Origin: Streptomyces sp. B21-105
GTDB lineage: Bacteria > Actinomycetota > Actinomycetes > Streptomycetales > Streptomycetaceae
NCBI RefSeq assembly: GCF_036898465.1
Contig: NZ_JARUMJ010000001.1
Location: 7,564,001-7,628,000, forward strand
Reading direction: 5' to 3'
Length of the DNA: 64,000 bases
A model generated the notes under the pieces. It saw nothing but the letters and a program-made list of their open reading frames with translations, was not told where the DNA came from and made no database searches. The translations under genes were made by a program, and so were the position numbers. Positions within the stretch are counted from its first letter, which is position 1. Every line of letters begins with the position of its first letter. This document shows positions 22,812-46,315 of this stretch, one piece after another.

Positions 22812-25676
22812 ATGAGCGTCATGGCCGAAGGGACGGCGGCTGCCGCCGAGCCCGCTTCCGTCTCCTCGTGCGTGCGGCTCGCCGCCGTCTTCCTGCCCGC
22901 CCCCCTCCCGCGCGAGGGCCGCGTCGCCTTCTGGGACCCGGCCGGCGACGCGCTGCCCGCCGCCCCCCAAGGGCAACGCACGGAGCTCACCGTCGTCCGC
23001 CGTCACGGCGCCACGATCCGCCGCAGGCAGACCCCGGCCCTGTCCCTGCCGCTCGACACGGCGCTCCCCCTGCTCGTGCGCGCCCGCAGCGACCCCGCCG
23101 CCCATCCGGCGACCGCCTGCTGGGGCGCGGCCGCGCTGCACGCGCTGCGGCTCGCCGCCCGCGGCAGGCTCCTGCCCGGCCTCACGCCCGCCGGACACGA
23201 CGCCTGGCGCGCGGGCCCCCTGGACCAGGAGGACGTCGCACACCTGCGCGCGGTCGCCGCCGCCCTCCCGCCCGAGGGCCACGCCGTGCCTCTCCCCGGC
23301 CCCGGCCCGCTCCTGCTGCCCCGGCCCGAACCCCTGATGCGCTCCTTCCTCGACGCGGTCGCGGACATCCTGCCCCGCACCCCGGCCGCGCCGCACGCCT
23401 GCGGGAAGCCTTTCGCGGACCGCCGGCCTCAGCGGCTGCCCGGCACACACGACTGGGCCGCGGAGGTCGCCGCCGGCATGGACGCGGGCGTGCGGATCTC
23501 GCTCCGCCTCGACCTGTCGGCGTACGACATGTTCGACGCGCCCGGCGACGAGGGGCACGGCGGGGCCCGGGCGCGCAGCGCGGGCGCGGCGATCGTCCAG
23601 GTGCACAGCCTCGCCGACCCGACGCTGGTGGCGGACGCGGCGGCGCTGTGGGCGGGCGAGGCCGACGCGGCCTTCGGGGCACGCGCACGCGTGGACGCGG
23701 CCCTCGCCGTGCGGCGCGCGGCCCGCGTGTGGCCGCCGCTGGCCCGGCTCGCCGAACAGGACGCGCCGGACGTCCTGGCCCTCTCCGAGGACGAGCTGGG
23801 CGACCTGCTGGGCGTGGCCGCCACCCGGCTCGCCGCGGCCGGGGTCGCCGTGCACTGGCCCCGGGACCTCGCACAGGACCTCAGCGCGGCCGCCGTGGTC
23901 CGTCCGGCGCCCGGCTCCGCCACCGACGGCGGGGGCTTCTTCGAGGGCGAGGAACTGCTCCAGTTCCGCTGGCAGCTGGCGATCGGCGGCGACCCGCTCA
24001 GCGAGGCCGAGATGGACGCGCTGGCGGAGGCCCACCGCCCGGTGGTGCGGCTGCGCGACCAGTGGGTGCTGGTCGATCCGGCGCTGGTGCGCAAGGCCCG
24101 CAAACGCGAACTGGGTCTGCTGGACCCGGTCGACGCCCTCTCCGTCGCCCTCTCCGGCGTCGCCGAGGTCGACGGCGAGACCGTCGAGGCGGTACCGGTC
24201 GGCGCGCTGGCCGCCCTGCGGGACCGGCTCACCGCCGGGGTGCGGCCCGCGGAGCCGCCCGCCGGCCTGCGCGCGGTCCTGCGCGACTACCAGCTGCGCG
24301 GCCTGGCCTGGCTGGACCTCATGACCTCCCTCGGCCTCGGCGGCTGCCTCGCCGACGACATGGGCCTCGGCAAGACGATCACCGTCATCGCCCTGCATCT
24401 GAAGCGGGCCCGCACCGAGCCCACCCTGGTGGTGTGCCCGGCCTCCCTGCTGGGCAACTGGCAGCGCGAGATCGAACGCTTCGCGCCCGGGGTGCCCGTC
24501 CGCCGCTTCCACGGCCCCGACCGCAGCCTGGCCGGGCTGTCCGGCGGCTTCGTCCTCACCACGTACGGCACGATGCGTTCGGCGGCGCCGACGCTGGCCG
24601 GACAGCCCTGGGGCATGGTCGTCGCGGACGAGGCGCAGCATGTGAAGAACCCCTACTCGGCGACGGCGAAGGCCCTGCGCACCATCCCGACCCCCGCCCG
24701 CGTGGCCCTGACCGGCACCCCCGTCGAGAACAACCTGTCCGAGCTCTGGGCGCTGCTCGACTGGACGACACCCGGGCTCCTCGGCCCCCTGAAGTCCTTC
24801 CGCGCCCGGCACGCGCGCGCGGTGGAGAACGGCGAGGACGACCAGGCGGTGGAGCGCCTCGCCCGGCTGGTCCGCCCGTTTCTCCTGCGCCGCAAGAAGT
24901 CCGATCCAGGCATCGTGCCGGAGCTGCCGCCCAAGACGGAGACCGACCACCCGGTCCCGCTCACCCGCGAACAGGCCGCCCTCTACGAGGCGGTGGTCCG
25001 CGAGTCCCTGCTGGCCATCGAGACGGCGGACGGCATCGCCCGCCGCGGCCTGGTGCTGAAGCTGCTTGGCGCGCTGAAGCAGATCTGCGACCACCCCGCC
25101 CTCTACCTCAAGGAGGCCGGCGCCTCCGCCGGTGACGCACTGGCCGCCCGCTCCGGCAAACTCGCCCTGCTGGACGAACTGTTGGACACCCTCCTCGCGG
25201 AGGACGGCTCGGCCCTCGTCTTCACCCAGTACGTCGGCATGGCCCGTCTGATCACCGCCCACCTCACCGCCCGCGCCGTCCCCGTCGACCTGCTGCACGG
25301 CGGGACTCCGGTGCCGGAACGGGAACGGATGGTGGACCGCTTCCAGAGCGGCGCCACCCCGGTCCTCGTGCTCTCCCTGAAGGCCGCCGGCACCGGCCTC
25401 AACCTGACACGCGCGGGGCACGTCGTGCACTTCGACCGGTGGTGGAACCCGGCGGTGGAGGAACAGGCCACCGACCGCGCCTACCGCATCGGCCAGACCC
25501 AGCCGGTCCAGGTGCACCGCCTCATCACCGAGGGCACGGTCGAGGACCGCATCGCCGAGATGCTTCAGGTCAAGCGCGCCCTGGCCGACGCGGTCCTCGG
25601 CTCCGGGGAGTCGGCCCTGACCGAGCTCACGGACCGTGAACTGACCGATCTGGTCAGGCTGCGGAGGGAGGCGTGA
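22812..25676 (+). CDS. SNF2/HepA-type DEAD/DEAH helicase
   Basis: 954-residue Swi2/Snf2 ATPase. Residues 1-480 form an actinobacterial N-terminal region typical of this subfamily. The ATPase motor has DDMGLGKTITVIAL (Walker A, about 514-527), ADEAQHVKN (Walker B, about 604), ALTGTPVENN (motif III), and the helicase-C motif GTGLNLTRAGHVVHFDRWW followed by QATDRAYRIGQ (about 890). It probably remodels protein-DNA or RNA polymerase complexes and is cytoplasmic. The stop overlaps the start of the SWIM gene, a pairing seen widely in actinobacteria, which suggests a two-protein machine. Confidence 0.93.
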   Translation: MSVMAEGTAAAAEPASVSSCVRLAAVFLPAPLPREGRVAFWDPAGDALPAAPQGQRTELTVVRRHGATIRRRQTPALSLPLDTALPLLVRARSDPAAHPATACWGAAALHALRLAARGRLLPGLTPAGHDAWRAGPLDQEDVAHLRAVAAALPPEGHAVPLPGPGPLLLPRPEPLMRSFLDAVADILPRTPAAPHACGKPFADRRPQRLPGTHDWAAEVAAGMDAGVRISLRLDLSAYDMFDAPGDEGHGGARARSAGAAIVQVHSLADPTLVADAAALWAGEADAAFGARARVDAALAVRRAARVWPPLARLAEQDAPDVLALSEDELGDLLGVAATRLAAAGVAVHWPRDLAQDLSAAAVVRPAPGSATDGGGFFEGEELLQFRWQLAIGGDPLSEAEMDALAEAHRPVVRLRDQWVLVDPALVRKARKRELGLLDPVDALSVALSGVAEVDGETVEAVPVGALAALRDRLTAGVRPAEPPAGLRAVLRDYQLRGLAWLDLMTSLGLGGCLADDMGLGKTITVIALHLKRARTEPTLVVCPASLLGNWQREIERFAPGVPVRRFHGPDRSLAGLSGGFVLTTYGTMRSAAPTLAGQPWGMVVADEAQHVKNPYSATAKALRTIPTPARVALTGTPVENNLSELWALLDWTTPGLLGPLKSFRARHARAVENGEDDQAVERLARLVRPFLLRRKKSDPGIVPELPPKTETDHPVPLTREQAALYEAVVRESLLAIETADGIARRGLVLKLLGALKQICDHPALYLKEAGASAGDALAARSGKLALLDELLDTLLAEDGSALVFTQYVGMARLITAHLTARAVPVDLLHGGTPVPERERMVDRFQSGATPVLVLSLKAAGTGLNLTRAGHVVHFDRWWNPAVEEQATDRAYRIGQTQPVQVHRLITEGTVEDRIAEMLQVKRALADAVLGSGESALTELTDRELTDLVRLRREA

Positions 25677-27910
25677 TGAGCGAACCGCACAAGAGCGGCG
25701 GGCCGGCCGACGAGGCACGCCGGGCGCTGCGGGCGGCCCGGGAGCGGCAGCAGGAGCAGACGCCGCAGCCCGCGCAGCAGCCCGCGCGGGAGCGGCGAGC
25801 GGAACGGCCCGGCCGTCCCGCGGTCCCCGCCGCCCCTCGACCGGCCGACGCCGCCCGCGCGGCCCTCGCACCGCCCGCAGTCGCGGCGCCGGCCCCCGAC
25901 GCGGAGCAGGCGGCCGACGCCCCTTCCACGTCCGACGAGCCGCCGACGCCGTCCTCCCGCCCCCTCGCGACCGTCCCGAACGGCACCTCCCCACCGGCCG
26001 GTCCCGACAAGAGCGCCACGACCTCGGAGACCGGACCCGTCCCCGACGCCACGACCGTCGCGCCCGCGACCGCTCCACGTCCCGGGGACATCGCCCGTGA
26101 GGCGCTGCGCGCGGCACGCGCACAGGCACGCCGAGGTCCCGCGGGGACCGAGGCACAGACACCCGCCGACACAGCCGTACCGTCGGCCCGTGAGGCGGCC
26201 CGTGAGTCGTCGCGCGAGGCGGCCCGTGAGTCGGTCTCCGGCCGACGGCGTCACCGTCACGGCCCGCGCCCCGCCGCGCAGCCCGCCGTGCGCCCCGCCG
26301 ACGTCGGGCGACCGGACCGCACGGGGGAGCACACGCGGGGTCGGCTCGCCGAGGAACGCGCCCGCGCCGTACGGGAGTTGCTCGCCGACTCCTTCCGCAT
26401 GCCGTCGGACGACGCCGCCGAACCCCCACCCCGACAGCCCCTGCCCCCACCCGGACCTGGGCGAGAGCCCGAGCCTGGGCGCCGGCCCGAGCCCGAGCCC
26501 GAGCGTGCACTCGACCCAGGGATCCCCCGGAGTCACGCGGAGAACGGCCCCGACGGCCCCGACCACGCCGGCGGCTTCGACGCTCCCGACGGCCGCGAGA
26601 GCCATGCGTTTGCCCCGGCGTACGACGACCTTGCACCCCACGCCCCCCGGTCCATGGCCGCCCCCTCCCGCGACGGCGATCACCGCCGCACCTTCCCGGC
26701 CTTCCCTCCGCGCACCGGCGGCGCCTTCGCCGGAACCTGGTGGGGCAACGCCTGGGTCGCCGCGCTCGAGGAGGGCGCCCTCGACGTCAAGCGCGTGATC
26801 CGCGGGCGCGGTTACGCCGAGCAGGGAAACGTGGACGCGATCACGGTCACGCCGGGACACGTCCTCGCCTATGTGCAGGGCAGCCGCCCCCGCCCGTACC
26901 GCGTCCAGGTCCGGCTGCGCACCCTCGGCGAGGAGGACTGGGAGCGCTTCCTGGCCGCCGCCGTCGAGCACCCCGGGCACATCGCCGCGCTGCTCGACAA
27001 GGAGATGCCGGAGTCGCTCGCCGAGTGCGGCGTGCCGCTGCTGCCCGGCCCGGGCGACCTGGAACCGCAGTGCAGCTGCCCCGACCGCGGTCACCCCTGC
27101 AAGCACGCGGCCGCCCTCTGCTACCAGACCGCCCGGCTGCTCGACGCCGACCCGTTCGTGCTGTTCCTGCTGCGCGGCCGGGGCGAGCGCGAGCTGCTGG
27201 ACGCGCTGTCCCGTCGCAACGCCGCCCGAGCGGCCCGCGCCGCACAGGAGCGGCAACCGCGGCCACTGCCGGGCGTGCGGGCCGCGGAAGCCCTCGCCGA
27301 GCGCCGCCTGCCACCCCTCCCGACCCCGCTGCCCGCGCCCGCGCACCCCGAGCAGCCCCCGGTGTACCCGTCCGCGCCGAACGGCCCCGACTCCTTCGCG
27401 CTGGACCACCTCGCGACCGACGCGGCCGCCCGCGCCCACGCCCTGTTGACCACCGGCGATGACGCGATCGGCGCGCTGACCCTCTGGCAGGACGCCGTAC
27501 GGCTCGCCGCGTCCCGCCCCGGCTCCGGGCTCACCGTCGCCACCCGGGCCCTCTACGCCTCGCTGGCCTGTGCCGCCGGCCGCACCCCGTCCGAACTGGC
27601 GCGCGCGGTGGCCGCCTGGCGGCAGGGCGGACCGGACGGGCTCGCCGTCCTGGAGGAGACCTGGGACCCGCCCGCGGGCCGCTTCGACCGGGCCCGCCCC
27701 CTCCTCCTGGCCGCCGACCTGCCCGCCTTCCGCCCCCGTCGCAACCATCTCACCCACCCCCACGGCCATGTCCAACTCCGCTTCGGGCGGGACGGGTTGT
27801 GGTACGCGTACGAGTCCGAACCCGGCCGTGACGACTGGTGGCCGCGCGGCACCCCCGACCCGGACCCGGTGGGCGCCCTCACCGGGCTGGGCGGCTCGGG
27901 CGAGTTGTGA
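25676..27910 (+). CDS. SWIM zinc-finger protein
   Basis: About 744 residues. The first 320 are Pro/Ala/Arg-rich and disordered, with repeated short helices (EARRALRAARE, DAARAALA, IAREALRAARAQAR). A folded segment follows (TWWGNAWVAALEEGALDVKR), then the SWIM motif CSCPDRGHPCKHAAALCYQ near residue 466 (CxC...CxH zinc ligands), and a C-terminal helical domain. SWIM domains bind DNA or proteins. The ATG at 25676 shares a base with the helicase stop (TGATG); a GTG three bases earlier is also possible. Co-translation with the SNF2 helicase points to a joint role in DNA or transcription-complex handling. Confidence 0.88.
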   Translation: MSEPHKSGGPADEARRALRAARERQQEQTPQPAQQPARERRAERPGRPAVPAAPRPADAARAALAPPAVAAPAPDAEQAADAPSTSDEPPTPSSRPLATVPNGTSPPAGPDKSATTSETGPVPDATTVAPATAPRPGDIAREALRAARAQARRGPAGTEAQTPADTAVPSAREAARESSREAARESVSGRRRHRHGPRPAAQPAVRPADVGRPDRTGEHTRGRLAEERARAVRELLADSFRMPSDDAAEPPPRQPLPPPGPGREPEPGRRPEPEPERALDPGIPRSHAENGPDGPDHAGGFDAPDGRESHAFAPAYDDLAPHAPRSMAAPSRDGDHRRTFPAFPPRTGGAFAGTWWGNAWVAALEEGALDVKRVIRGRGYAEQGNVDAITVTPGHVLAYVQGSRPRPYRVQVRLRTLGEEDWERFLAAAVEHPGHIAALLDKEMPESLAECGVPLLPGPGDLEPQCSCPDRGHPCKHAAALCYQTARLLDADPFVLFLLRGRGERELLDALSRRNAARAARAAQERQPRPLPGVRAAEALAERRLPPLPTPLPAPAHPEQPPVYPSAPNGPDSFALDHLATDAAARAHALLTTGDDAIGALTLWQDAVRLAASRPGSGLTVATRALYASLACAAGRTPSELARAVAAWRQGGPDGLAVLEETWDPPAGRFDRARPLLLAADLPAFRPRRNHLTHPHGHVQLRFGRDGLWYAYESEPGRDDWWPRGTPDPDPVGALTGLGGSGEL

Positions 27911-30608: not shown

Positions 30609-31052
30609 ATGGAACAGATCGTGGACGCCGCTGTGCGCTTTCCCACCGTCACCGTCACCCCGGCCCTGGTCGTCGCTCTCGGCTTCTGGCTGCTGGTCCT
30701 GCTGGGGCGGACCGATGTGCGCGCCTTCGACGCCGATGCCCCCTCGCTGACCAGGTCGCTCGGTGGGACGCCGGTCGCCGTCGCGGTCTCCGTCGTGATC
30801 GTGAGCGACTGGCTGGTCAGCCTCACCGGAACGCTGCTGATGGAGCCGGCGTCCCCGAGCGGTCCCGGCGGTGCCGCGGCCCGGGTCGCCCTGCTCGTCC
30901 TGGCCGCACTGGTCGCGCTGGTCGCCCGGCCGGTGACACGACGGTGTGCGGCGCCGCTCGACAGGCTCTTCCCGGGCGGCCCGGGGGTGTACCGGCGCGC
31001 TGCCGCGCTCAGCGCTCCCTACGACCCCGGCAGTCCCCACCCCGGCGGCTGA
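30609..31052 (+). CDS. Small membrane protein beside flotillin (YqiJ-like)
   Basis: 147-residue protein with hydrophobic segments at about 12-33 (TVTPALVVALGFWLLVLLG), 53-78 (TPVAVAVSVVIVSDWLVSL) and 93-113 (VALLVLAALVALVARP). The C-terminal 40 residues are probably cytoplasmic, where an OB-fold-type domain would be in full-length NfeD/YqiJ proteins. Its position immediately before a flotillin is that of YqiJ/NfeD partners, which in other bacteria anchor or shape flotillin assemblies. Assignment rests on topology and context; I do not see a full NfeD domain. The ATG at 30609 follows GGGGCGGGGAC. Confidence 0.6.
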   Translation: MEQIVDAAVRFPTVTVTPALVVALGFWLLVLLGRTDVRAFDADAPSLTRSLGGTPVAVAVSVVIVSDWLVSLTGTLLMEPASPSGPGGAAARVALLVLAALVALVARPVTRRCAAPLDRLFPGGPGVYRRAAALSAPYDPGSPHPGG

Positions 31053-31251
31053 GCCGCCCACGGGCCCCGCGGCCGGACCGCGCGCACCTCTGCCCGACGC
31101 GCGCCCCACGCACGCGCCCGACGTACGCCCGGCGCTCACCCGATGCAACGTCTGACGCGCGCCCCGCGTCTCTGCCCGCACGGAACGGTCCACCCGGCCT
31201 CGCCGTCGAGGCCGCCAACTCCTCGCAGACCCGAAGCTCGAAGGATGACGT

Positions 31252-33297
31252 ATGAATGCCATCACCGCGGGCGCCGGCGTGCTCATCGCCGCCGGCCTGC
31301 TCGTCACCGTCGCCGCACTGTTCGTCGTCTCCCGGCTGTTCCGCAAGGTGGAGCAGGGCAAGGCGCTGATCGTCTCCAAGACGCGCAAGGTCGACGTGAC
31401 CTTCACCGGTCAGGTGGTCCTGCCGGTACTGCACAAGGCCGAGGTGATGGACATCTCGGTGAAGACGATCGAGATCACCCGGGCCGGCAAGGAGGGGCTG
31501 ATCTGCCGGGACAACATCCGCGCGGACATCCGGATCTCGTTCTTCGTGAAGGTCAACAAGACCGTCGAGGACGTCATCAAGGTCGCCCAGGCCGTCGGCA
31601 CGGTGCGGGCGAGCGACCAGAGGACGCTGCAGGAGCTGTTCCACGCGAAGTTCTCCGAGGCGCTGAAGACCGTCGGCAAGCAGATGGACTTCACCGACCT
31701 GTACACCAAGCGCGAGGAACTCCGTTACCAGATCATCGAGTTGATCGGTGTCGACCTCAACGGCTACCACCTCGAGGACGCGGCGATCGACTACCTGGAG
31801 CAGACGCCGCTCACCCAGCTGGACCCGGCGAACGTCCTGGACGCCCAGGGCATCCGGAAGATCACCGAGCTGACGGCCGTGGAGCACGTGCGCACCAACG
31901 AGGCCCAGCGCACGGAGGAGAAGGAGATCACCCGGCAGAACGTCGACGCCCGCGAGGCCATCCTGGAGCTGGAGCGCCGGCAGGCCGACGCCGAGATCAG
32001 GCAGCGCCGCGAGATCGAGACCGTACGCGCCCGTGAGGAGGCCGAGACGGCGCGGGTGGTGGAGGAGGAGCGGCTGCGCGCGCAGTCCGCCTTCCTGCAG
32101 ACCGAGGAGCAGCTCGGCGTGCAGCGGGAGAACCAGGCCCGCGAGGTCGCCGTCGCGCAGAAGAACCGCGAGCGGGTCATCGCGATCGAGAACGAGCGCA
32201 TCGAGAAGGACCGTCTCCTCGAGGTGATCGCCCGGGAACGGGAGACCCAGCTGACGCAGATCGCCGCTTCCAAGGAGGTCGAGGCGGAGAAGCGGGACAT
32301 CGCCGAGGTCATCCGTGAGCGGGTCGCCGTGGACCGCACCGTGGCCGAGCAGGAGGAGGCCATCAAGAAGCTGCGGGCCGTGGAGGAGGCGGAGCGCGGC
32401 CGGCAGAGCGTGATCATCGCCGCCGAGGCCGAGGCGCAGGAGAAACTCGTCAAGGACATCAAGGCTGCCGAGGCCGCCGAACAGGCCGCCGTCCACCGCG
32501 CGGCCGAGGAACTCACCCTCGCCGAGGCCCGGTTGAAGAGGGCCGACCTCGACGCGCAGGCCAAGCTGCGCCTCGCCGAGGGCGTCCGGGCCGAGCAGGC
32601 CGCCGAAGGCCTCGCGGCCGTCCAGGTGCGCGACAAGGAAGCGGAGGTGACGGAGAAGGCCGGCCGTGCGGAGGCCGTGGCGGCCGAGGCGCGGATGCGG
32701 GCCGAGGCGGAGGGCGTCCGGGCCAAGGCGCTCGCCGAGGCCGAGGGCATCGGCGAGAAGCTGAAGGCGGAGGCGGCCGGCCTGACCGAGAAGGCGGCGG
32801 CGATGGCCGCGCTCGACGAGGCGTCCCGCGGTCACGAGGAGTACCGGCTGCGGTTGCAGGCGGAGAAGGAGATCCGGCTCGCCGGGCTCGATGTGCAGAA
32901 GCAGGTCGCCGAGGCGCAGGCCACGGTCCTCGCCACCGGTCTGGAGAACGCCGACATCAACATCGTCGGCGGGGACTCGGTCTTCTTCGACCGGCTCGTC
33001 TCCTCGATCGCGCTCGGCAGAGGCGTCGACGGGTTCGTCCAGAACTCCGAGACGGCCCAGGCGCTCGCGGGGCCCTGGCTGGACGGCTCGTCGAGCTTCA
33101 CCGACGACCTCGGCCGCGTCCTCGGCCAGGTCTCCACGGCGGACGTGCAGAACCTGACCGTGTCCGCCCTGCTGATGAAGCTGATGAGGACGGGCGCAGC
33201 CGACTCGGGCGCTCTGGAGCAACTGCTCGGCAAGGCCGCCGAACTGGGTGTCGCCGACACGTCGCTGGCGGCGCTGAACGGCAGCGCCAAGGTCTGA
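31252..33297 (+). CDS. Flotillin-family (SPFH) protein
   Basis: 681-residue scaffold protein. One membrane helix lies at about 5-28 (GAGVLIAAGLLVTVAALFVV). The SPFH domain lies at about 30-210 (VEQGKALIVSKTRKVDVTF). A very long coiled coil follows at about 215-560, rich in Glu-Ala-Arg heptads such as EAEGVRAKALAEAEGI, then a C-terminal segment (INIVGGDSVFFDRLVSSIAL) typical of the YqiK branch. Flotillins form membrane-associated oligomers that organise microdomains. It is flanked by the YqiJ-like membrane protein gene and the giant AAA ATPase gene, all on one strand. Confidence 0.92.
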   Translation: MNAITAGAGVLIAAGLLVTVAALFVVSRLFRKVEQGKALIVSKTRKVDVTFTGQVVLPVLHKAEVMDISVKTIEITRAGKEGLICRDNIRADIRISFFVKVNKTVEDVIKVAQAVGTVRASDQRTLQELFHAKFSEALKTVGKQMDFTDLYTKREELRYQIIELIGVDLNGYHLEDAAIDYLEQTPLTQLDPANVLDAQGIRKITELTAVEHVRTNEAQRTEEKEITRQNVDAREAILELERRQADAEIRQRREIETVRAREEAETARVVEEERLRAQSAFLQTEEQLGVQRENQAREVAVAQKNRERVIAIENERIEKDRLLEVIARERETQLTQIAASKEVEAEKRDIAEVIRERVAVDRTVAEQEEAIKKLRAVEEAERGRQSVIIAAEAEAQEKLVKDIKAAEAAEQAAVHRAAEELTLAEARLKRADLDAQAKLRLAEGVRAEQAAEGLAAVQVRDKEAEVTEKAGRAEAVAAEARMRAEAEGVRAKALAEAEGIGEKLKAEAAGLTEKAAAMAALDEASRGHEEYRLRLQAEKEIRLAGLDVQKQVAEAQATVLATGLENADINIVGGDSVFFDRLVSSIALGRGVDGFVQNSETAQALAGPWLDGSSSFTDDLGRVLGQVSTADVQNLTVSALLMKLMRTGAADSGALEQLLGKAAELGVADTSLAALNGSAKV

Positions 33298-33303
33298 CAG
33301 GCC

Positions 33304-33346
33304 GCGGTCCGGAGCTGCCGCACAGGGGACGGCAGCTCCGGACCGC
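33304..33346 (+). terminator. Perfect 17-bp stem hairpin between flotillin and ATPase genes
   Basis: Left arm 33304-33320, 9-nt loop CACAGGGGA, right arm 33330-33346 fully complementary, followed by TTCTTCTTGCGACTTTTCTT. It has the form of a strong intrinsic terminator, which is unusual between two genes that appear to be partners. Only 31 bp separate it from the ATPase start codon, too little for an ordinary separate promoter downstream. Confidence 0.85.
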
Positions 33347-33377
33347 TTCTTCTTGCGACTTTTCTTGAGAGGGAACC

Positions 33378-36300
33378 ATGACCAACGGCCTGGACACCGG
33401 CACGTACGAGGTGCTGCGCGACCGCCTCATCGCGCAGGCCGCCGAACTCGCCCGCCGCGCCGAGGCGCTCAATGCCCGCCGCACCGCGGAGTTCGGCTCC
33501 ACCCGGCTGCGGCTCGCCGGCACCGGGCAGCTGCGCACCGACCACGCGGCCGTGCCCCGGGACGTCGTCGCCGTCGGCGACGTCCTGCTCTTCGGCCACG
33601 ACGCCGGCTCCGGCCGGGGACCCGAGCCGGCCGTCGGCGACGTCTTCGCGCTGCACAGCCGCGACCGCGACCGTGATCTCGACCGGTTGCCGACGGACGC
33701 CGTGCCCGGGCTGCTCGACGACCCGGCCTTCGTCCGCGAGTTCGCCGCCCTCCACCGCTACTACCGCCAGGCCCGGCTGCTCCGGCTGCGCCGGGTCGAC
33801 GGCAAGTTGCTCGCCGTCTTCCGGACCGGGGAGAAGGCGGCGGACATCCGCGTCCTGCGCTGGGCGGTGACCGACGACGGCCGGGCGTCCTTCCTCGACG
33901 CGCGCGGCGACCGCGACCACGTCTTCCCGGCCTCCCACGACGTCGAGTGGACGCCGACGTCCCGCGACGACCACGTCCTCGGCCGCCACCCGCACGTCAG
34001 TGTCGGGGGCGAGGTCTTCGTCGCCACCGTCGGCGGAACCCTCACCGTCAAGGTCGACGACGACACCGAATCCGGCGAGGGCGTGCACGCCGAACCGGTC
34101 GAGGACCCCCTGCAGTCCCTCGCCGACGCGGACATCGCGTACGCGCGCGTGGGCCCGCTGATCCTGCTGCGGATCCGCCCCTACAAGGAGGACGCCGACC
34201 GCCACCTGGTGTTCAACACCCTCACCCGGACGGTCGTCCGGCTGGACGGCATCGGGCAGGCGTGCCGACGGCTGCCCGAGGACCAGGGCATCGTCTTCCC
34301 CGGCGGCTACTGCCTGGCCACCGGCACGCACAAGACCTTCGACGGCGTCGCCGCCCCCGCGACCACGGGCGCCCTGGAATTCGAGCGGACGGTCCGCTCG
34401 CCGGGCGGCGAGGACGTGCTGTTCGTCTTCCACGCGCGCGCGCAGGGGCGCAGCCTGCTGCTGCCGTACAACATGATCCGCAAGGAGGTCGCCACCCCGC
34501 TGTCCTGCCGCGGCTGGGCCCTCTTCGACGACGGCGCCCTCGTCGTGCTGCGCGCGGACGGCGAGGAACCGCAGAGCGTCCACCCCGTCCAGCTCTGGGA
34601 GTCGCCCTTCGTCTCCGACACCCACGCCGCCGCCCGGCCCGCGGGCGCCGGCCCGCTCGCCCGCGTCGGCAACGCCGACCTCGTGCGCGGCATCTCCGAC
34701 TGCCTCTCCCTCAGCCGCACCGTCACCGACACCACGTCGACGAGCGAGGGATACGCGGCACTGGCCGCCGGCTGCGTCCGCGCCGCCGACTCCTACCACT
34801 GGCTGACCGACCCCGAACTCGGCGCTCTGCACGAGCCGCTCGCGCAGATGCGGGCCACCGCCGAACAGGTACGGGCCGAGTTCGCGACCGTGCAGGCTCT
34901 CACCCGGCAGGCCGCGGACGCGCTCACCGACGCGGCGGAGCGCGTCGCCGCCGCCGTACGCCGGCTGCGCGGCGAGGCCCCGCGCTCCGCCGCCGCCTGG
35001 GTGTCCGGGCTGACCGAACTCCGGCACGCCCAGGGCCATCTGCTCACCCTCAAGGACCAGCGGTACGTCGACGCCGACCGCGTCGACGAACTCGCCGCCG
35101 GCGCCGAGGGCGACCTCGCCGCCTTCGGGCGGCGGGCCGCCGCCCACCTCGCGCGCGAGGACGCCTTCGCCGGCCACCAGGCCGACGTCGAGCGCCTCGT
35201 CGCCGACGCCGAGGCGATCACCACCGTCGCCGAAGCCGCGCCCGTCGCCGCCCGTCTCGACGAACTCACCGGCGGGCTGCGCACGGTGACCGAGATCGTG
35301 GCCGGACTCGACATCGCCGACGCGAGAGTCCGGACGTCCGTCCTGCAACGGATCGCCGACGTCCTCGGCGGCGCCAACCGGGCCCGCGCCCTCCTCGAGG
35401 GCCGCCGCCGCGCCCTCCGCGACCGTGAGGGACGGTCGGAGTTCGCGGCCGAGTTCGCCCTGCTGGGCCAGTCGGTCACCCAGGCGCTCGCCGCCGCCGA
35501 CACCCCGAAGGCGTGCGACGAGCAGCTCGCCCTCCTGCTGGTGCAGCTGGAGAACCTGGAGTCCCGGTTCGCCGAGTTCGACGACTTCCTCGGCGTCCTC
35601 GCCGACAAGCGCGACGAGGTCCACGAGGCGTTCTCCGCACGCGAACAGACCCTCGTCGACGCCCGCGCCCGCCATGCCGAACGCCTCGCCGACTCGGCGG
35701 CACGCGTCCTGCGGACCGTCACCCGCCGCGGCGCCGCGCTCGCGGACACCGACGCCGTCACCACGTACTTCACCTCGGACCCCATGGTCGTCAAGGTCCG
35801 CCGTCTCTCCGGGGAACTGCGCGAACTCGGCGACCAGGTGCGGGCGGAGGAGCTCGACGGCCGCCTCAAGGCCGCCCGCCAGGAGGCCCTGCGGTCCCTG
35901 CGCGACCGCAGCGACCTGTACACCGACGACGGCCGCACCCTGCTCCTCGGGACGCACCGCTTCGCCGTCCACACCCAGCCGCTCGACCTCACCCTTGTTC
36001 CGCACGGCGAGGGGCTGTCCTTCGCCCTGACCGGCACCGACTACCGCTCCCCGGTCACCGCCCCCGACGTCGCCGCGGCCCGCCCCTACTGGGGCCGGCC
36101 GCTGCCGTCGGAGTCACCCGAGGTCTACCGCGCCGAACACCTCGCCGCCCGGCTCCTGCACGAACACGGCCCGGCCGCCCTGGAGGAGGCCGACCTGCCG
36201 GGCCTCGTCCGGCAAGCCGCGGAAACCGCTTACGACGAGGGGTACGAGCGCGGCGTCCACGACCACGACGCGACCCTGATCCTCACCACCGTCCTGCGGC

Positions 36301-38255
36301 TGTACGCGAACGCCGGCCCCCTGCGCCACGAGCCCGCCGCGCGTGCCGCCGCCCAGCTGTTCTGGGCCCACGAGGCGACCGCCGAGGCCCGCCAGGACTG
36401 GCGGCGGCGCGCGGTCTCCCTGGCCCGCGCACGGGACACGTTCGGCCTGACGCCCGCGATCGACGATCTACGGAGGGAACTGGCGGACGCGATCGGAAGG
36501 ACCGAGACCGGAACGAACGCGACCGGCACGGCCGTGACCGCCACGGAGGCGGCGGCCGCCTACCTCTTCGAAGAGCTGACCGGCGGCCCCGAGGGCTTCG
36601 TCCTGGGCGCCGGCTGCCGCACCCTGCTGGAGAAGTTCCGCCGCTCGGTGGGCTCGTCGGCCTACGACGACGACCTCGCCGCCCTCGGCGGACCGGCCGC
36701 ACGCCGGCAGATCGTCGAGGCGTGGCTGTCCTCCTACGCCGCCTCGACCGGCGCCGACACCACCCCGGGCGACCTGGCCGAGGCGGTCGCCGCCGAACTC
36801 TGCCCCGGCCTGACCCGCTACGACCGCGACGCGCGGCTGACCGCGACGGTCGACGGGCTGCTCGGGGTCCACCCCCGCATCGTCGCCGGGGCCCTGCCCG
36901 TCCGCGTCGACGAGTTCCTCGCCCGCACGCACGCGTTCCGCACCCACGACGTCCCCGGCCACCGCGCCTACCAGCGCCGCCGCACCGAGCTGGTGGCGGC
37001 CGAACACGCCCGGCTCCGCCTGGACGAGTACCGGCCGCGGATCATGTCCGCGTTCGTCCGCAGCAGGCTCATCGACGAGGTCTACCTCCCGCTGATCGGG
37101 GACAGCCTGGCCAAGCAGCTCGGCGCCACCGGCGCGGCCAAGCGCACCGACACCGGCGGCCTGCTCCTGCTCGTCTCCCCGCCCGGCTACGGCAAGACGA
37201 CCCTCATGGAGTACGTCGCCGACCGCCTCGGCCTGATGCTGGTGAAGATCAACGGCCCCGCCCTCGGCCGGTCCGTCACCTCGCTCGACCCGGCCGAGGC
37301 GCCGAACGCCACCGCCCGCCAGGAGGTCGAGAAGATCAACTTCGCGCTGGCGGCGGGCAACAACACCCTGCTGCACCTGGACGACATCCAGCACACGTCG
37401 CCCGAACTGCTGCAGAAGTTCATCCCGTTGTGCGACGCCACCCGCCGCGTCGAGGGCGTCCTCAACGGTGAGCCCCGCACCTACGACCTCCGCGGCAAAC
37501 GCTTCGCCGTCTGCATGGCCGGCAACCCCTACACCGAGTCCGGCGCGCGCTTCCGAGTCCCCGACATGCTCGCCAACCGAGCCGACGTCCGTAACCTCGG
37601 CGAGGTCCTCACCGACAAGCAGGACCACTTCGCGTTCAGCTTCGTCGAGAACGCCCTCACCTCGAACCCGGTCCTGGCCCCGCTCGCCGGCCGTGACCGC
37701 GCCGACCTGGAGCTGCTGGTGCGCCTGGCGGGCGGTGACTCCACGGCCCGCGCCGACCGGCTCATCCACCCGTACGCCCCGGCCGAGCTGGAGCGGATCC
37801 TGGCCGTCCTGCGCCACCTGCTCACCGCCCGCGACACCGTCCTGGCGGTGAACCACGCCTACATCGCCTCGGCGGCGCAGTCCGACGACGCCCGCACCGA
37901 ACCGCCCTTCCGGCTCCAGGGCTCGTACCGCGACATGAACAAGATCGCCCAGCGGGTCCAGCCGGTCATGAACGACGCCGAACTGGCCGCGCTGATCGAG
38001 GACCACTACACGACCGAGGCCCGGACCCTCACCACGGGCGCCGAGGCGAACCTGCTCAAACTGGCCGAACTGCGCGGCGCGCTCACCCCCGAACAGGCCG
38101 CCCGCTGGGCGGACGTCAAGGCCGCGTGCGTGCGCACCCGAACGCTCGGCGGACCGCAGGACGACCAGCTCACGCGCGCGATCGCGGTCCTCGGCCTCCT
38201 CGCGGACCGGATCGCCGCCGTCGAGTCCGCCATCACCCGAGCCGCCGGGACCTGA
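33378..38255 (+). CDS. Giant AAA-type ATPase ('DNA repair ATPase' family)
   Basis: 1,625-residue protein. Residues 1-450 are a beta-rich N-terminal region of unknown fold. About 450-860 are helical and coiled-coil (DALTDAAERVAAAVRRLRGE, EEQLALLL-type heptads). About 860-1230 are mixed. The AAA module starts near 1250: Walker A PPGYGKTTLMEYVA (about 1268), Walker B LLHLDDIQHTSPELLQKF (about 1331), and a sensor-like VCMAGNPYTESGARF. Proteins of this family are often annotated as DNA repair ATPase, without proof known to me. Beside a flotillin it may act on membrane-associated complexes. The ATG at 33378 follows GAGAGGGAACC. The hairpin just upstream suggests attenuated or processed expression. 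Confidence 0.85.
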   Translation: MTNGLDTGTYEVLRDRLIAQAAELARRAEALNARRTAEFGSTRLRLAGTGQLRTDHAAVPRDVVAVGDVLLFGHDAGSGRGPEPAVGDVFALHSRDRDRDLDRLPTDAVPGLLDDPAFVREFAALHRYYRQARLLRLRRVDGKLLAVFRTGEKAADIRVLRWAVTDDGRASFLDARGDRDHVFPASHDVEWTPTSRDDHVLGRHPHVSVGGEVFVATVGGTLTVKVDDDTESGEGVHAEPVEDPLQSLADADIAYARVGPLILLRIRPYKEDADRHLVFNTLTRTVVRLDGIGQACRRLPEDQGIVFPGGYCLATGTHKTFDGVAAPATTGALEFERTVRSPGGEDVLFVFHARAQGRSLLLPYNMIRKEVATPLSCRGWALFDDGALVVLRADGEEPQSVHPVQLWESPFVSDTHAAARPAGAGPLARVGNADLVRGISDCLSLSRTVTDTTSTSEGYAALAAGCVRAADSYHWLTDPELGALHEPLAQMRATAEQVRAEFATVQALTRQAADALTDAAERVAAAVRRLRGEAPRSAAAWVSGLTELRHAQGHLLTLKDQRYVDADRVDELAAGAEGDLAAFGRRAAAHLAREDAFAGHQADVERLVADAEAITTVAEAAPVAARLDELTGGLRTVTEIVAGLDIADARVRTSVLQRIADVLGGANRARALLEGRRRALRDREGRSEFAAEFALLGQSVTQALAAADTPKACDEQLALLLVQLENLESRFAEFDDFLGVLADKRDEVHEAFSAREQTLVDARARHAERLADSAARVLRTVTRRGAALADTDAVTTYFTSDPMVVKVRRLSGELRELGDQVRAEELDGRLKAARQEALRSLRDRSDLYTDDGRTLLLGTHRFAVHTQPLDLTLVPHGEGLSFALTGTDYRSPVTAPDVAAARPYWGRPLPSESPEVYRAEHLAARLLHEHGPAALEEADLPGLVRQAAETAYDEGYERGVHDHDATLILTTVLRLYANAGPLRHEPAARAAAQLFWAHEATAEARQDWRRRAVSLARARDTFGLTPAIDDLRRELADAIGRTETGTNATGTAVTATEAAAAYLFEELTGGPEGFVLGAGCRTLLEKFRRSVGSSAYDDDLAALGGPAARRQIVEAWLSSYAASTGADTTPGDLAEAVAAELCPGLTRYDRDARLTATVDGLLGVHPRIVAGALPVRVDEFLARTHAFRTHDVPGHRAYQRRRTELVAAEHARLRLDEYRPRIMSAFVRSRLIDEVYLPLIGDSLAKQLGATGAAKRTDTGGLLLLVSPPGYGKTTLMEYVADRLGLMLVKINGPALGRSVTSLDPAEAPNATARQEVEKINFALAAGNNTLLHLDDIQHTSPELLQKFIPLCDATRRVEGVLNGEPRTYDLRGKRFAVCMAGNPYTESGARFRVPDMLANRADVRNLGEVLTDKQDHFAFSFVENALTSNPVLAPLAGRDRADLELLVRLAGGDSTARADRLIHPYAPAELERILAVLRHLLTARDTVLAVNHAYIASAAQSDDARTEPPFRLQGSYRDMNKIAQRVQPVMNDAELAALIEDHYTTEARTLTTGAEANLLKLAELRGALTPEQAARWADVKAACVRTRTLGGPQDDQLTRAIAVLGLLADRIAAVESAITRAAGT

Positions 38256-43732: not shown

Positions 43733-46315
43733 ATGGCGCACGACGAGGTGACGGGCGGGGAGCCGTCGGCCGGGGTTCCGGGCGCACGAGGTGCTGACGC
43801 GGCGGAGCCGCCCCTGTCCGTCCAGGTGCACGGGGCGAAGGTCCACAACCTGAAGAACATCGACGTGACGGTGCCGCTGCGCCGACTCGTCGCGGTGGCG
43901 GGGGTGTCCGGCTCCGGGAAGTCGTCGCTGGCGATGGGAGTGCTGTACGCGGAGGGCTCACGGCGCTACATCGAGGCGCTGTCCACATACACCCGCCGGC
44001 GTATGGCGCAGGCCCCGCGTGCGGCGGTGGACAGCGTCGAGCACGTGCCCGCGGCCCTCGCCCTGCGGCAGCGGCCCGGCGTGCCCGGGGTGCGCAGCAC
44101 GTTCGGCACCTCGACCGAACTGCTCAACGTGCTGCGTCTGCTGTTCTCCCGACTGGGATCACACCTGTGCCCCAAGGGTCACCGGCAGGACCCGACGATC
44201 GACGTGGCCGCCGGACTGGACCTGACCTGCCCGGTGTGCGAGGTGACGTTCTACCCGCCCGGCGCTCAGTCGCTGGCCTTCAACTCCGACGGCGCGTGCC
44301 CGCGGTGCACCGGTACCGGCACGGTCCGGGAAGTCGACGAAGCGGCTCTCGTCCCCGATCCGCGACGCACCATCGCCGAGGGGGCGGTGGCCCCGTGGTC
44401 GATGTTCGGGCTGACGGTGATGCCGCAGGTCGTCGCCGAGCTCGGGGTGCGCACCGATGTGCCGTACGCGGAACTGACCGCACGCGAGCGGGAGATCGTC
44501 CTGCACGGCCCCGCGGAGCAGCGGCACATCAGCGTCCGGTCCAAGAACGGCAAGTTCTTCGAGCTGGACTTCACCTACCGCAACGCCCGCCGCGCCGTCG
44601 AGGAGGCTCTGAACAACGCCACCACCGAACGCGGACTGAACCGGGTGAACAGGTTCGTCAGCGCCCAGGTGTGCCCGACCTGCCACGGCGCCCGGCTCAG
44701 CGAGCAGGCCCGCGCCACCCTCGTCGACGGAGTCGACCTCGCCGAAGCCACCGCGAAGACCCTCGACGAACTCACCGCCTGGGCCCCCACCCTCGTGGAC
44801 GCCCTGCCGTCCGAGATGCACCCCATGGCGCGGAACATCGTCGCCACCCTGCTGGAGACCGCTCGCCGCCTGGTCGAACTCGGCCTCGGCTACCTCGCGC
44901 TGGACCGGGCGAGCTCGACCCTGTCGACGGGCGAGCGCCAACGCGTTCAACTGGCCCGCGCCGTACGCAACCGGACCACCGGCGTGCTCTACGTCCTCGA
45001 CGAGCCCTCCATCGGCCTGCATCCCTCGAACGTGGACGGCCTGCTGGGCGTCATGCGCGATCTGCTCCGCGACGGCAACTCCGTGGTCCTCGTCGACCAC
45101 GACGTCCAGGTCCTGCGCGAAGCCGACTGGCTCATCGAGATCGGCCCCGGCTCCGGCACCGAAGGCGGCACGGTCCTGGCAACCGGCGACGTCACGGCTC
45201 TCGGCGAGAACCCCGACTCCGTGATCGGTGGATTCCTCACCGGCCGCGAACCCGTCCTGGTCCGCCGACGGGCCGAACGCGACGTGATGTTCGACCAAGG
45301 CCGCATCCACCTGTCCACCCGACCCCTGCATACCGTGCACGCCCTGGACGTCGACATCCCCCAGGGCCGCCTGACCGCCGTGACCGGCGTGTCCGGATCG
45401 GGCAAGACCACGCTGATCCTCGAAAGCCTGATCCCCGCGCTGCGGGCGAAAGCCGCGGGCAGCGCGCTGCCCGACCACGTGAGGGCGGTGGACGCCCGGA
45501 CGATCACCCGGGTGAACACGGTCGACGCCACCCCCATCGGCGTCAACGTCCGCTCCACCGTCGCCACCTACAGCGGCATCCTCGACGACCTGCGCCGCGC
45601 CTACGCCGCCACCGACGCGGCCGGGCAGCGGGGGCTCACCGCCGCGGACTTCTCCTACAACACCGGCTCCCTGCGCTGCCCCCGGTGCGAAGGCACCGGC
45701 CAGGTCTCCCTCGACGTCCAGTTCCTGCCCGACGTCGACATCGCCTGCCCCGCGTGCGACGGCGCCCGGTACGCCCCCGCGGCCGCCGACATCCGCCGCC
45801 CGGCCCCCGAGAACCCCGACGACGGGCTGTCGTTGCCGGAACTGCTCGCCCTCACCGTCGGGCAGGCGATCGAGCAGGTCGGTGACATCCGCCGGGTGAG
45901 GACCCGGCTCCAAGCCCTCATCGACCTCGGGCTCGGATATCTCACCCTCGGCGAAGACACCCCCGCCCTGTCCGGCGGCGAGGCACAGCGGCTGAAGCTC
46001 GCCACCGAGCTGACCCGCGACCAGTCCGACACCCTCTTCGTCCTGGACGAACCCAGCGTCGGCCTCCACCCCCTCGACATCCGCACACTCCTGGACGTCC
46101 TCCAGCGGCTGGGCGACAACGGCGCCACCGTCATCGTCATCGAACACGACCTGGACATGATCGCCAACGCCGACTACGTCATCGACATGGGCCCCGGAGG
46201 CGGCGCCGCCGGCGGCACCGTCGTCGCCACGGGAACACCCGACGACCTCGCACATGACCCGCACAGCGTCACCGCCCGCTACCTCAGCCGCCATCTGCAC
46301 CCGACGAAGCCGTGA
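43733..46315 (+). CDS. UvrA-like ABC-ATPase (UvrA2/DrrC class)
   Basis: 860-residue excinuclease-subunit-A-like protein. It has two ABC ATPase cassettes: Walker [19 protein letters not shown] at about 61 and [14 protein letters not shown] at about 556; signatures [14 protein letters not shown] and [12 protein letters not shown]; and Walker [13 protein letters not shown] and [12 protein letters not shown]. Zinc-finger Cys pairs are present (CPVC ... CPRC; CPRC ... CPAC). It is shorter than UvrA (about 950) and lacks the full UvrB-interacting region, as do UvrA2/DrrC proteins tied to drug resistance or to tolerance of DNA-binding compounds. GAGGAGGGAGAAG precedes the ATG. The divergent HxlR gene suggests inducible expression. 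Confidence 0.92.

Follow-up and report, generated by a model that had tools for sequence, protein, structure and literature searches.

A probable Streptomyces version of the SPFH-flotillin/AAA+/YqiJ operon, most likely for membrane maintenance under envelope stress

RESULTS AND DISCUSSION

A three-gene membrane cassette in Streptomyces

In a 64,000-nucleotide stretch of the 9.2-Mb genome of Streptomyces sp. B21-105 (C1:7564001-7628000; here called the window), three consecutive plus-strand genes encode a small membrane protein, an SPFH protein and a giant AAA+ ATPase. We read this row as the Streptomyces version of an operon, SPFH-flotillin/AAA+/YqiJ, that occurs in phage-shock-protein (PSP) neighborhoods, and its task as most likely membrane maintenance under envelope stress. 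The initial annotation, made from the letters alone, had proposed an undescribed membrane machine encoded by three consecutive genes. The genes stand, the same three being chosen by open reading frame (ORF) listing and by a codon-usage gene caller; the novelty does not, as the three proteins had already been described as a predicted set with a link to membrane stress by Ravi et al. 2024 (PMC11237479; papers are cited by such accession numbers, most of them represented by parts of their text). As a gene unit the membrane machine is well supported, and as a function it is unproven. For both the ATPase and the SPFH protein, the nearest named relatives come from Streptomyces. The ATPase belongs to a widespread kind of protein of about 1,600 residues that is labeled “DNA repair ATPase” although it keeps company with a membrane scaffold. 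Should the scaffold-motor reading hold, bacteria would have another way to pair an SPFH assembly with an AAA+ motor, besides HflKC-FtsH, and the Streptomyces form, with two genes in some genomes, would be a simple setting in which to study the role of bacterial flotillins in envelope stress and to ask whether the motor targets PspA or the SPFH polymer.

Co-occurrence of scaffold and ATPase

The SPFH scaffold and the ATPase belong together and seem to be passed on jointly. The ATPase was found in 20 of 61 related genomes (all 20 among 37 Streptomyces genomes, own genome included) and in 35 of 246 genomes of the class, and exactly the same 35 of 246 held the SPFH protein (E threshold of 1e-20; four candidates were scored per genome, and “absent” means no close relative rather than no SPFH protein). 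Two of the genomes (G107 and G151) carry two copies each of the ATPase and SPFH genes, adjacent to one another. The SPFH gene lies next upstream of the ATPase gene in every fetched actinobacterial locus (39/39), which argues that the pairing is more than chance. Gene calls are split for the SPFH gene in L057 and for the ATPase in L059 and L022; in L059, from genome G107, the ATPase falls into frames of 576 and 996 residues, and the second copy of that genome lies in a long open frame.

A further 89 loci comprised nine plasmid records plus the top 80 among 507 confirmed hits, picked by closeness to a Deinococcus sequence. In 82/89, the start of the SPFH gene is no more than 3 kb upstream of the ATPase; in four (L084, L085, L142 and L145), it is 4.1 to 8.5 kb upstream, and the contigs of the remaining three (L095, L117 and L146) have at most 123 bases upstream of the ATPase. 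All fetched loci were found via the ATPase; the comparison of 246 genomes is free of that choice. Protein identities of the two partners are correlated (Spearman coefficient of 0.82 over 120 loci and 0.65 among the 20 Streptomyces rows). The shared set of 35 genomes and the adjacency in both sets of loci thus bear out the earlier placement of scaffold and ATPase in one unit, and the idea survived the check proposed with it, namely, whether the ATPase mostly lacks flotillin in other genomes. The pairing is not widely reciprocal, as Escherichia coli has YqiJ-YqiK but no PF12458 match.

Other genes accompany the pair less regularly. A YqiJ-type match occurs anywhere in the locus in 78/89 further loci, and the best PspA match lies on the same strand in 32/89 and on the other strand in 2/89. 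Annotated examples show PspA accompanied by YjfI or CesT/Tir-type genes, and CesT/Tir and PspA share the operon in part of the proteobacterial loci and on one Bacteroidota plasmid. Anywhere in the 89 loci, phospholipase-D-like genes were matched in 22, rhomboid genes in 11 and TelA genes in 8. The TelA (toxic anion resistance) matches are in L066, L067, L070, L071, L072, L074, L080 and L086, with PF05816 in L067; a TelA gene and a phospholipase-D-like gene both follow the ATPase closely in L066 and L067.

Architecture of the giant ATPase

The AAA+ motor is intact, every motor residue looked at being retained. PF00004 (AAA) matches from residue 1263 (26.9 bits), and the stretches SPPGYGKTT (residue 1267), LLHLDDIQHT (1331), GNPYTESG (1382), FRVPDMLANRAD (1392) and LQGSYRDMNK (1513) include what we take to be Walker A, Walker B and the further motifs of such a motor. 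Invariant in 40/40 aligned ATPases are K and T of Walker A, D-D of Walker B, N of GNP, R of NRAD and R of GSYR. This agrees with the intact C-terminal AAA motor claimed by the initial annotation. Its companion claim, that the first 1,200 residues match nothing recognizable, had to be abandoned: PF12458 (DUF3686) matches residues 23 to 474 at 647 bits (cut-off, 25) over model positions 1 to 448 of 448, and PF25472 (DUF7902) matches residues 595 to 678 at 96 bits. The ATPase has relatives along its entire length; an NCBIfam scan gave no model above cut-off. Helical periodicity, calculated from mean hydropathy over 40 ATPases, is low at residues 41 to 440, high at 441 to 840, low at 841 to 920 and moderate thereafter (Table 1). 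Beta-propeller repeats have been ascribed to the DUF3686 region of an ATPase of this kind (PMC11237479); self-comparison of the N-terminal domain yielded no repeats, and a search for solved structures related to it found none. A PDB search with the motor returned P-loop matches only (best, NVL, Rix7 and Cdc48), and the motor profile matched one other place in the own genome (E = 0.005). Within an HDHDA stretch at residues 961 to 965, H961, D962, D964 and A965 are invariant in 40/40 sequences, and no known motif was recognized in it.

Table 1. Genes of the cassette and regions of the ATPase, in window positions
Feature	Positions	Strand	Description	Basis
Small membrane protein	30609..31052	+	ATG at 30609, 147 aa	ORF list and codon-usage gene caller
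SPFH protein, YqiK type	31252..33297	+	681 aa	ORF list and codon-usage gene caller
DUF3686/DUF7902 AAA+ ATPase	33378..38255	+	1,625 aa	ORF list and codon-usage gene caller
DUF3686 region, aa 23-474	33444..34799	+	Mostly low helical periodicity	PF12458 match
Region aa 441-840, taken as coiled coil	34698..35897	+	Contains DUF7902, aa 595-678	High helical periodicity
AAA+ motor, about aa 1251 to 1528	37128..37961	+		Pfam, motifs, invariant residues

The SPFH protein and its small partner

The SPFH protein has one hydrophobic segment at its N-terminus (hydropathy, with the gene caller) and a long stretch with many E, A and R residues, presumed to be coiled coil. It is assigned to the YqiK type because several of its listed relatives carry PF01145 and because a family profile made without YqiK matched E. 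coli YqiK in hhalign (probability of 99.9%, E = 3e-35, 395 columns). In an eight-sequence alignment, Band_7 was matched in two sequences only and Flot in one; a PDB search with the SPFH alignment gave no match.

The small protein has three hydrophobic segments and no Pfam match. Its family profile as a whole matched YqiJ weakly (36%, E = 4e-4), the window protein alone gave no match to YqiJ, and its alignment retrieved a single PDB match (E = 0.076); the YqiJ/NfeD type is therefore assigned from its relatives and the gene position. Identity is 81% to the protein of L023 and about 40% to Streptomyces relatives that bear an OB-like domain. That domain lies downstream of the membrane part in 27/39 actinobacterial loci (E of 1e-10 or better), is a remnant in L032, and was not found in 11/39 (L021, L022, L023, L026, L029, L030, L035, L038, L039, L049 and L059); tblastn detected no remnant of it between the small and SPFH genes of the window. 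The membrane part was detected in 33/39 loci at an E value of 0.01 and not found at that threshold in L029, L035, L038, L039, L049 and L058, although the OB-like part is present in L058. In a 24-row ATPase tree made by a quick method, the OB-like domain requires at least two changes when L032 is left out of the count, and the window falls within a supported set of eight rows without it. Judged from these sequences, the small protein is the membrane part only of a YqiJ/NfeD-type partner, the OB-like domain having been lost in the Streptomyces clade of the window. The earlier label “YqiJ-like” thus suits the membrane part and fails for the rest. The small partner is dispensable; it is cut down or missing in part of Streptomyces.

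Proposed role and competing explanations

We consider it rather probable that the cassette encodes a machine for envelope stress, the SPFH scaffold holding a client and a cytosolic AAA+ motor remodeling it. In favor are the shared distribution and adjacency of the ATPase and SPFH genes, the PspA matches on the same strand in 32/89 further loci, the published ESCRT-like proposal (PMC11237479), the joint transcription of bacA to bacF in Pseudomonas aeruginosa (PMC10948618) and the rise of PA3728-PA3732 in phage-infected cells of that species (PMC12041424). The SPFH protein would oligomerize into a membrane-bound scaffold, the ATPase would dock on it from the cytosol through its N-terminal 1,200 residues, and the AAA+ ring would spend ATP to pull on or dismantle a client collected on the scaffold. 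In operons that include PspA and CesT/Tir, the likeliest client would be PspA, an ESCRT-III-like membrane remodeler; in the genome of the window, it might be PspA encoded elsewhere (one such gene is present), the SPFH scaffold, or membrane proteins that have been damaged. Naming any single client is a doubtful step, given less than half the confidence placed in the machine as such. The scaffold half of the mechanism has a tested precedent, by analogy, in Bacillus subtilis YdjI (PMC8581546).

Several results weigh against this proposal. Queries with PspA, YjfI and Tir found no match in the window or in the 39 actinobacterial loci, so that a link to PspA is only indirect for the window. The SPFH protein of the window, taken alone, falls below all Pfam thresholds, including those of Band_7 and Flot, and PF15975 has no match in the own genome. 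The hydropathy scan marks one hydrophobic segment in the ATPase (zero to two in relatives), for which reason we call it only likely cytosolic. In Pseudomonas aeruginosa PA14, SPFH deletions, single or combined, caused no pronounced phenotype (PMC13086221).

Possible, and put forward as a tentative version, is that the irreducible unit is the SPFH scaffold plus the giant AAA+ ATPase, a self-sufficient membrane machine driven by ATP that crosses phyla as a cassette. The Streptomyces form would then manage without local PspA and CesT/Tir, and its NfeD-type partner would have disappeared in stages, the OB-like domain going first and the remainder later. With the SPFH polymer itself as client, the pair would correspond to ESCRT-III/Vps4 on an SPFH basis, and some members of the genus have a PucR-type regulator next to it.

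Quality control of membrane proteins of the HflKC-FtsH kind, in which the scaffold would fence membrane proteins and the motor unfold or extract damaged ones, with a client other than PspA, draws on the SPFH plus AAA+ pairing itself, the 39 actinobacterial loci without a PspA match, the rhomboid protease genes somewhere in 11/89 further loci and the HflKC-FtsH precedent named in PMC13086221. It is nonetheless unlikely: Pfam finds no protease domain in the ATPase, and rhomboid genes are not in the cassette of the window. Less probable still is a dedicated anti-phage system that senses phage damage to the membrane, even though the cassette is patchy (20/37 Streptomyces genomes) and carried on plasmids, and PA3728-PA3732 are among 17 genes raised in all phage-infected P. 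aeruginosa samples (PMC12041424). PADLOC gave nothing for the small and SPFH proteins and two weak P-loop matches for the ATPase (15.1 and 13.9 bits); with no supporting match there, membership in a known defense system was rejected. No effector domain was found by Pfam, and defense models (E threshold of 1e-20) were few in 109 flanking proteins drawn from 200 (mad3 four times, five others once each, as raw counts with no background set). Phage-shock genes, moreover, respond to envelope stress in general.

A role in DNA repair is very improbable. Beyond the database label “ATPase involved in DNA repair” itself, it can point to a RuvB P-loop match of 20.8 bits, which is below the cut-off of 27. 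Scans with Pfam and NCBIfam found no DNA-binding, nuclease or helicase domain above threshold, and the constant companion of the ATPase is a membrane scaffold. The role was rejected for want of a repair domain in those scans, in line with the initial annotation, which had seen no support for the label. PMC11112851, considered as a source for “DNA repair ATPase”, merely cites a MutS paralogue and was set aside; the term “DUF3686” was not found in the literature searched.

Mobility, regulator and neighboring genes

The cassette is at times carried on plasmids. The ATPase was found in 12 of 72,556 plasmid-collection records, from nine genera, and in none of the phage records. Three of the 12, two from Proteus and one from Nonomuraea, exceed 4 Mb, and three more measure 1.6 to 2.1 Mb; because these six are so large, only six records, pQBR103 included, resemble ordinary plasmids. 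In the two Deinococcus copies, both proteins are nearest to those of Xanthomonadaceae, which suggests joint transfer between phyla. Within Pseudomonas, the genus of L073, the ATPase is present in 13/99 genomes.

A protein of one family, about 320 to 360 residues long, is encoded upstream on the opposite strand in 12/19 Streptomyces loci (L021 to L039; 12/20 with L059); in L023, it is upstream but not the next gene, and in L021, it has a PucR-type helix-turn-helix domain. As its label needs seven changes on the ATPase tree, the regulator evidently comes and goes. No member of this family is beside the cassette of the window; a protein 67% identical is encoded elsewhere in the genome. About 4.3 kb past the end of the window (C1:7632311-7632580, minus strand) lie broken pieces of the regulator family, one with an inner stop.

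Upstream of the cassette, at 22812-27910, a SNF2-type helicase (NF058637, SCO1167/SCO6262 family) precedes a SWIM zinc-finger protein, with a four-base overlap between the two frames. A link between this pair and the cassette was rejected, because none of the 39 loci has the pair within four genes of it. A two-domain ABC protein at 43826-46315 has a UvrA-like appearance, judged from its sequence alone.

Comparison with known systems

The closest published counterpart is the operon of Ravi et al. (PMC11237479), in which an SPFH-flotillin protein, an ATPase of this kind and YqiJ stand together and PspA and CesT/Tir are optional. Shortened operons, which include the ATPase “in some cases”, are suggested there to work with PspA encoded elsewhere, and an ESCRT-like role is proposed. 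The window shares with these operons a coiled-coil SPFH protein, an AAA+ ATPase with a large N-terminal part and what is probably a three-TM (transmembrane) YqiJ-type protein in one row. It differs from the full form in having no PspA or CesT/Tir match and a YqiJ-type protein without the OB-like domain, and a PucR-type regulator adjoins the row in part of Streptomyces. The main text of that paper mentions neither TelA nor rhomboid nor Streptomyces. In the parts available of the published accounts, we did not meet the exact co-occurrence counts, the Streptomyces losses of the OB-like domain and partner gene, the recurrent PucR-type neighbor or the TelA and rhomboid neighbors. As no MIT domain was among the Pfam matches of the ATPase up to an E value of 0.1, likeness to ESCRT-III/Vps4 would be one of working principle only.

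The P. aeruginosa bacABCDEF operon looks like a relative of the cassette, with orthology inferred. By reverse transcription-PCR, bacA to bacF form one operon, and they are jointly raised when bacA is mutated (PMC10948618); PA14_16160 is a short NfeD protein and PA14_16180 an SPFH protein (PMC13086221), and PA3728 appears in a table of mutated genes (PMC4199492). Pseudomonas loci other than bac have a bac-like gene order with a DUF3686 ATPase, and from this order and the labels in the papers, BacE would be the DUF3686 ATPase. Unlike the window, the bac operon has PspA and DUF2170 genes. A study of E. coli yjfIJKL and heat (PMC12492005) concerns PspA-YjfI relatives, not the ATPase. E. coli YqiJ-YqiK (PMC2636767) resembles the window in that the SPFH protein matches YqiK and a small partner gene lies directly upstream; the E. 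coli genome, however, has no PF12458 match, and YqiJ retains the OB-fold missing from the window protein.

HflKC-FtsH offers an analogous union of SPFH assembly and AAA+ motor, but FtsH is a membrane-bound protease, whereas the ATPase of the window has no protease domain. In B. subtilis PspA-YdjGHI, for which the available text of PMC8581546 names no giant AAA+ ATPase, the SPFH protein YdjI is required to localize PspA to the membrane and depends on YdjG/H for reaching it, whereas the SPFH protein of the window has a hydrophobic segment of its own. By analogy, both may be cases of an SPFH protein acting with membrane proteins in envelope stress.

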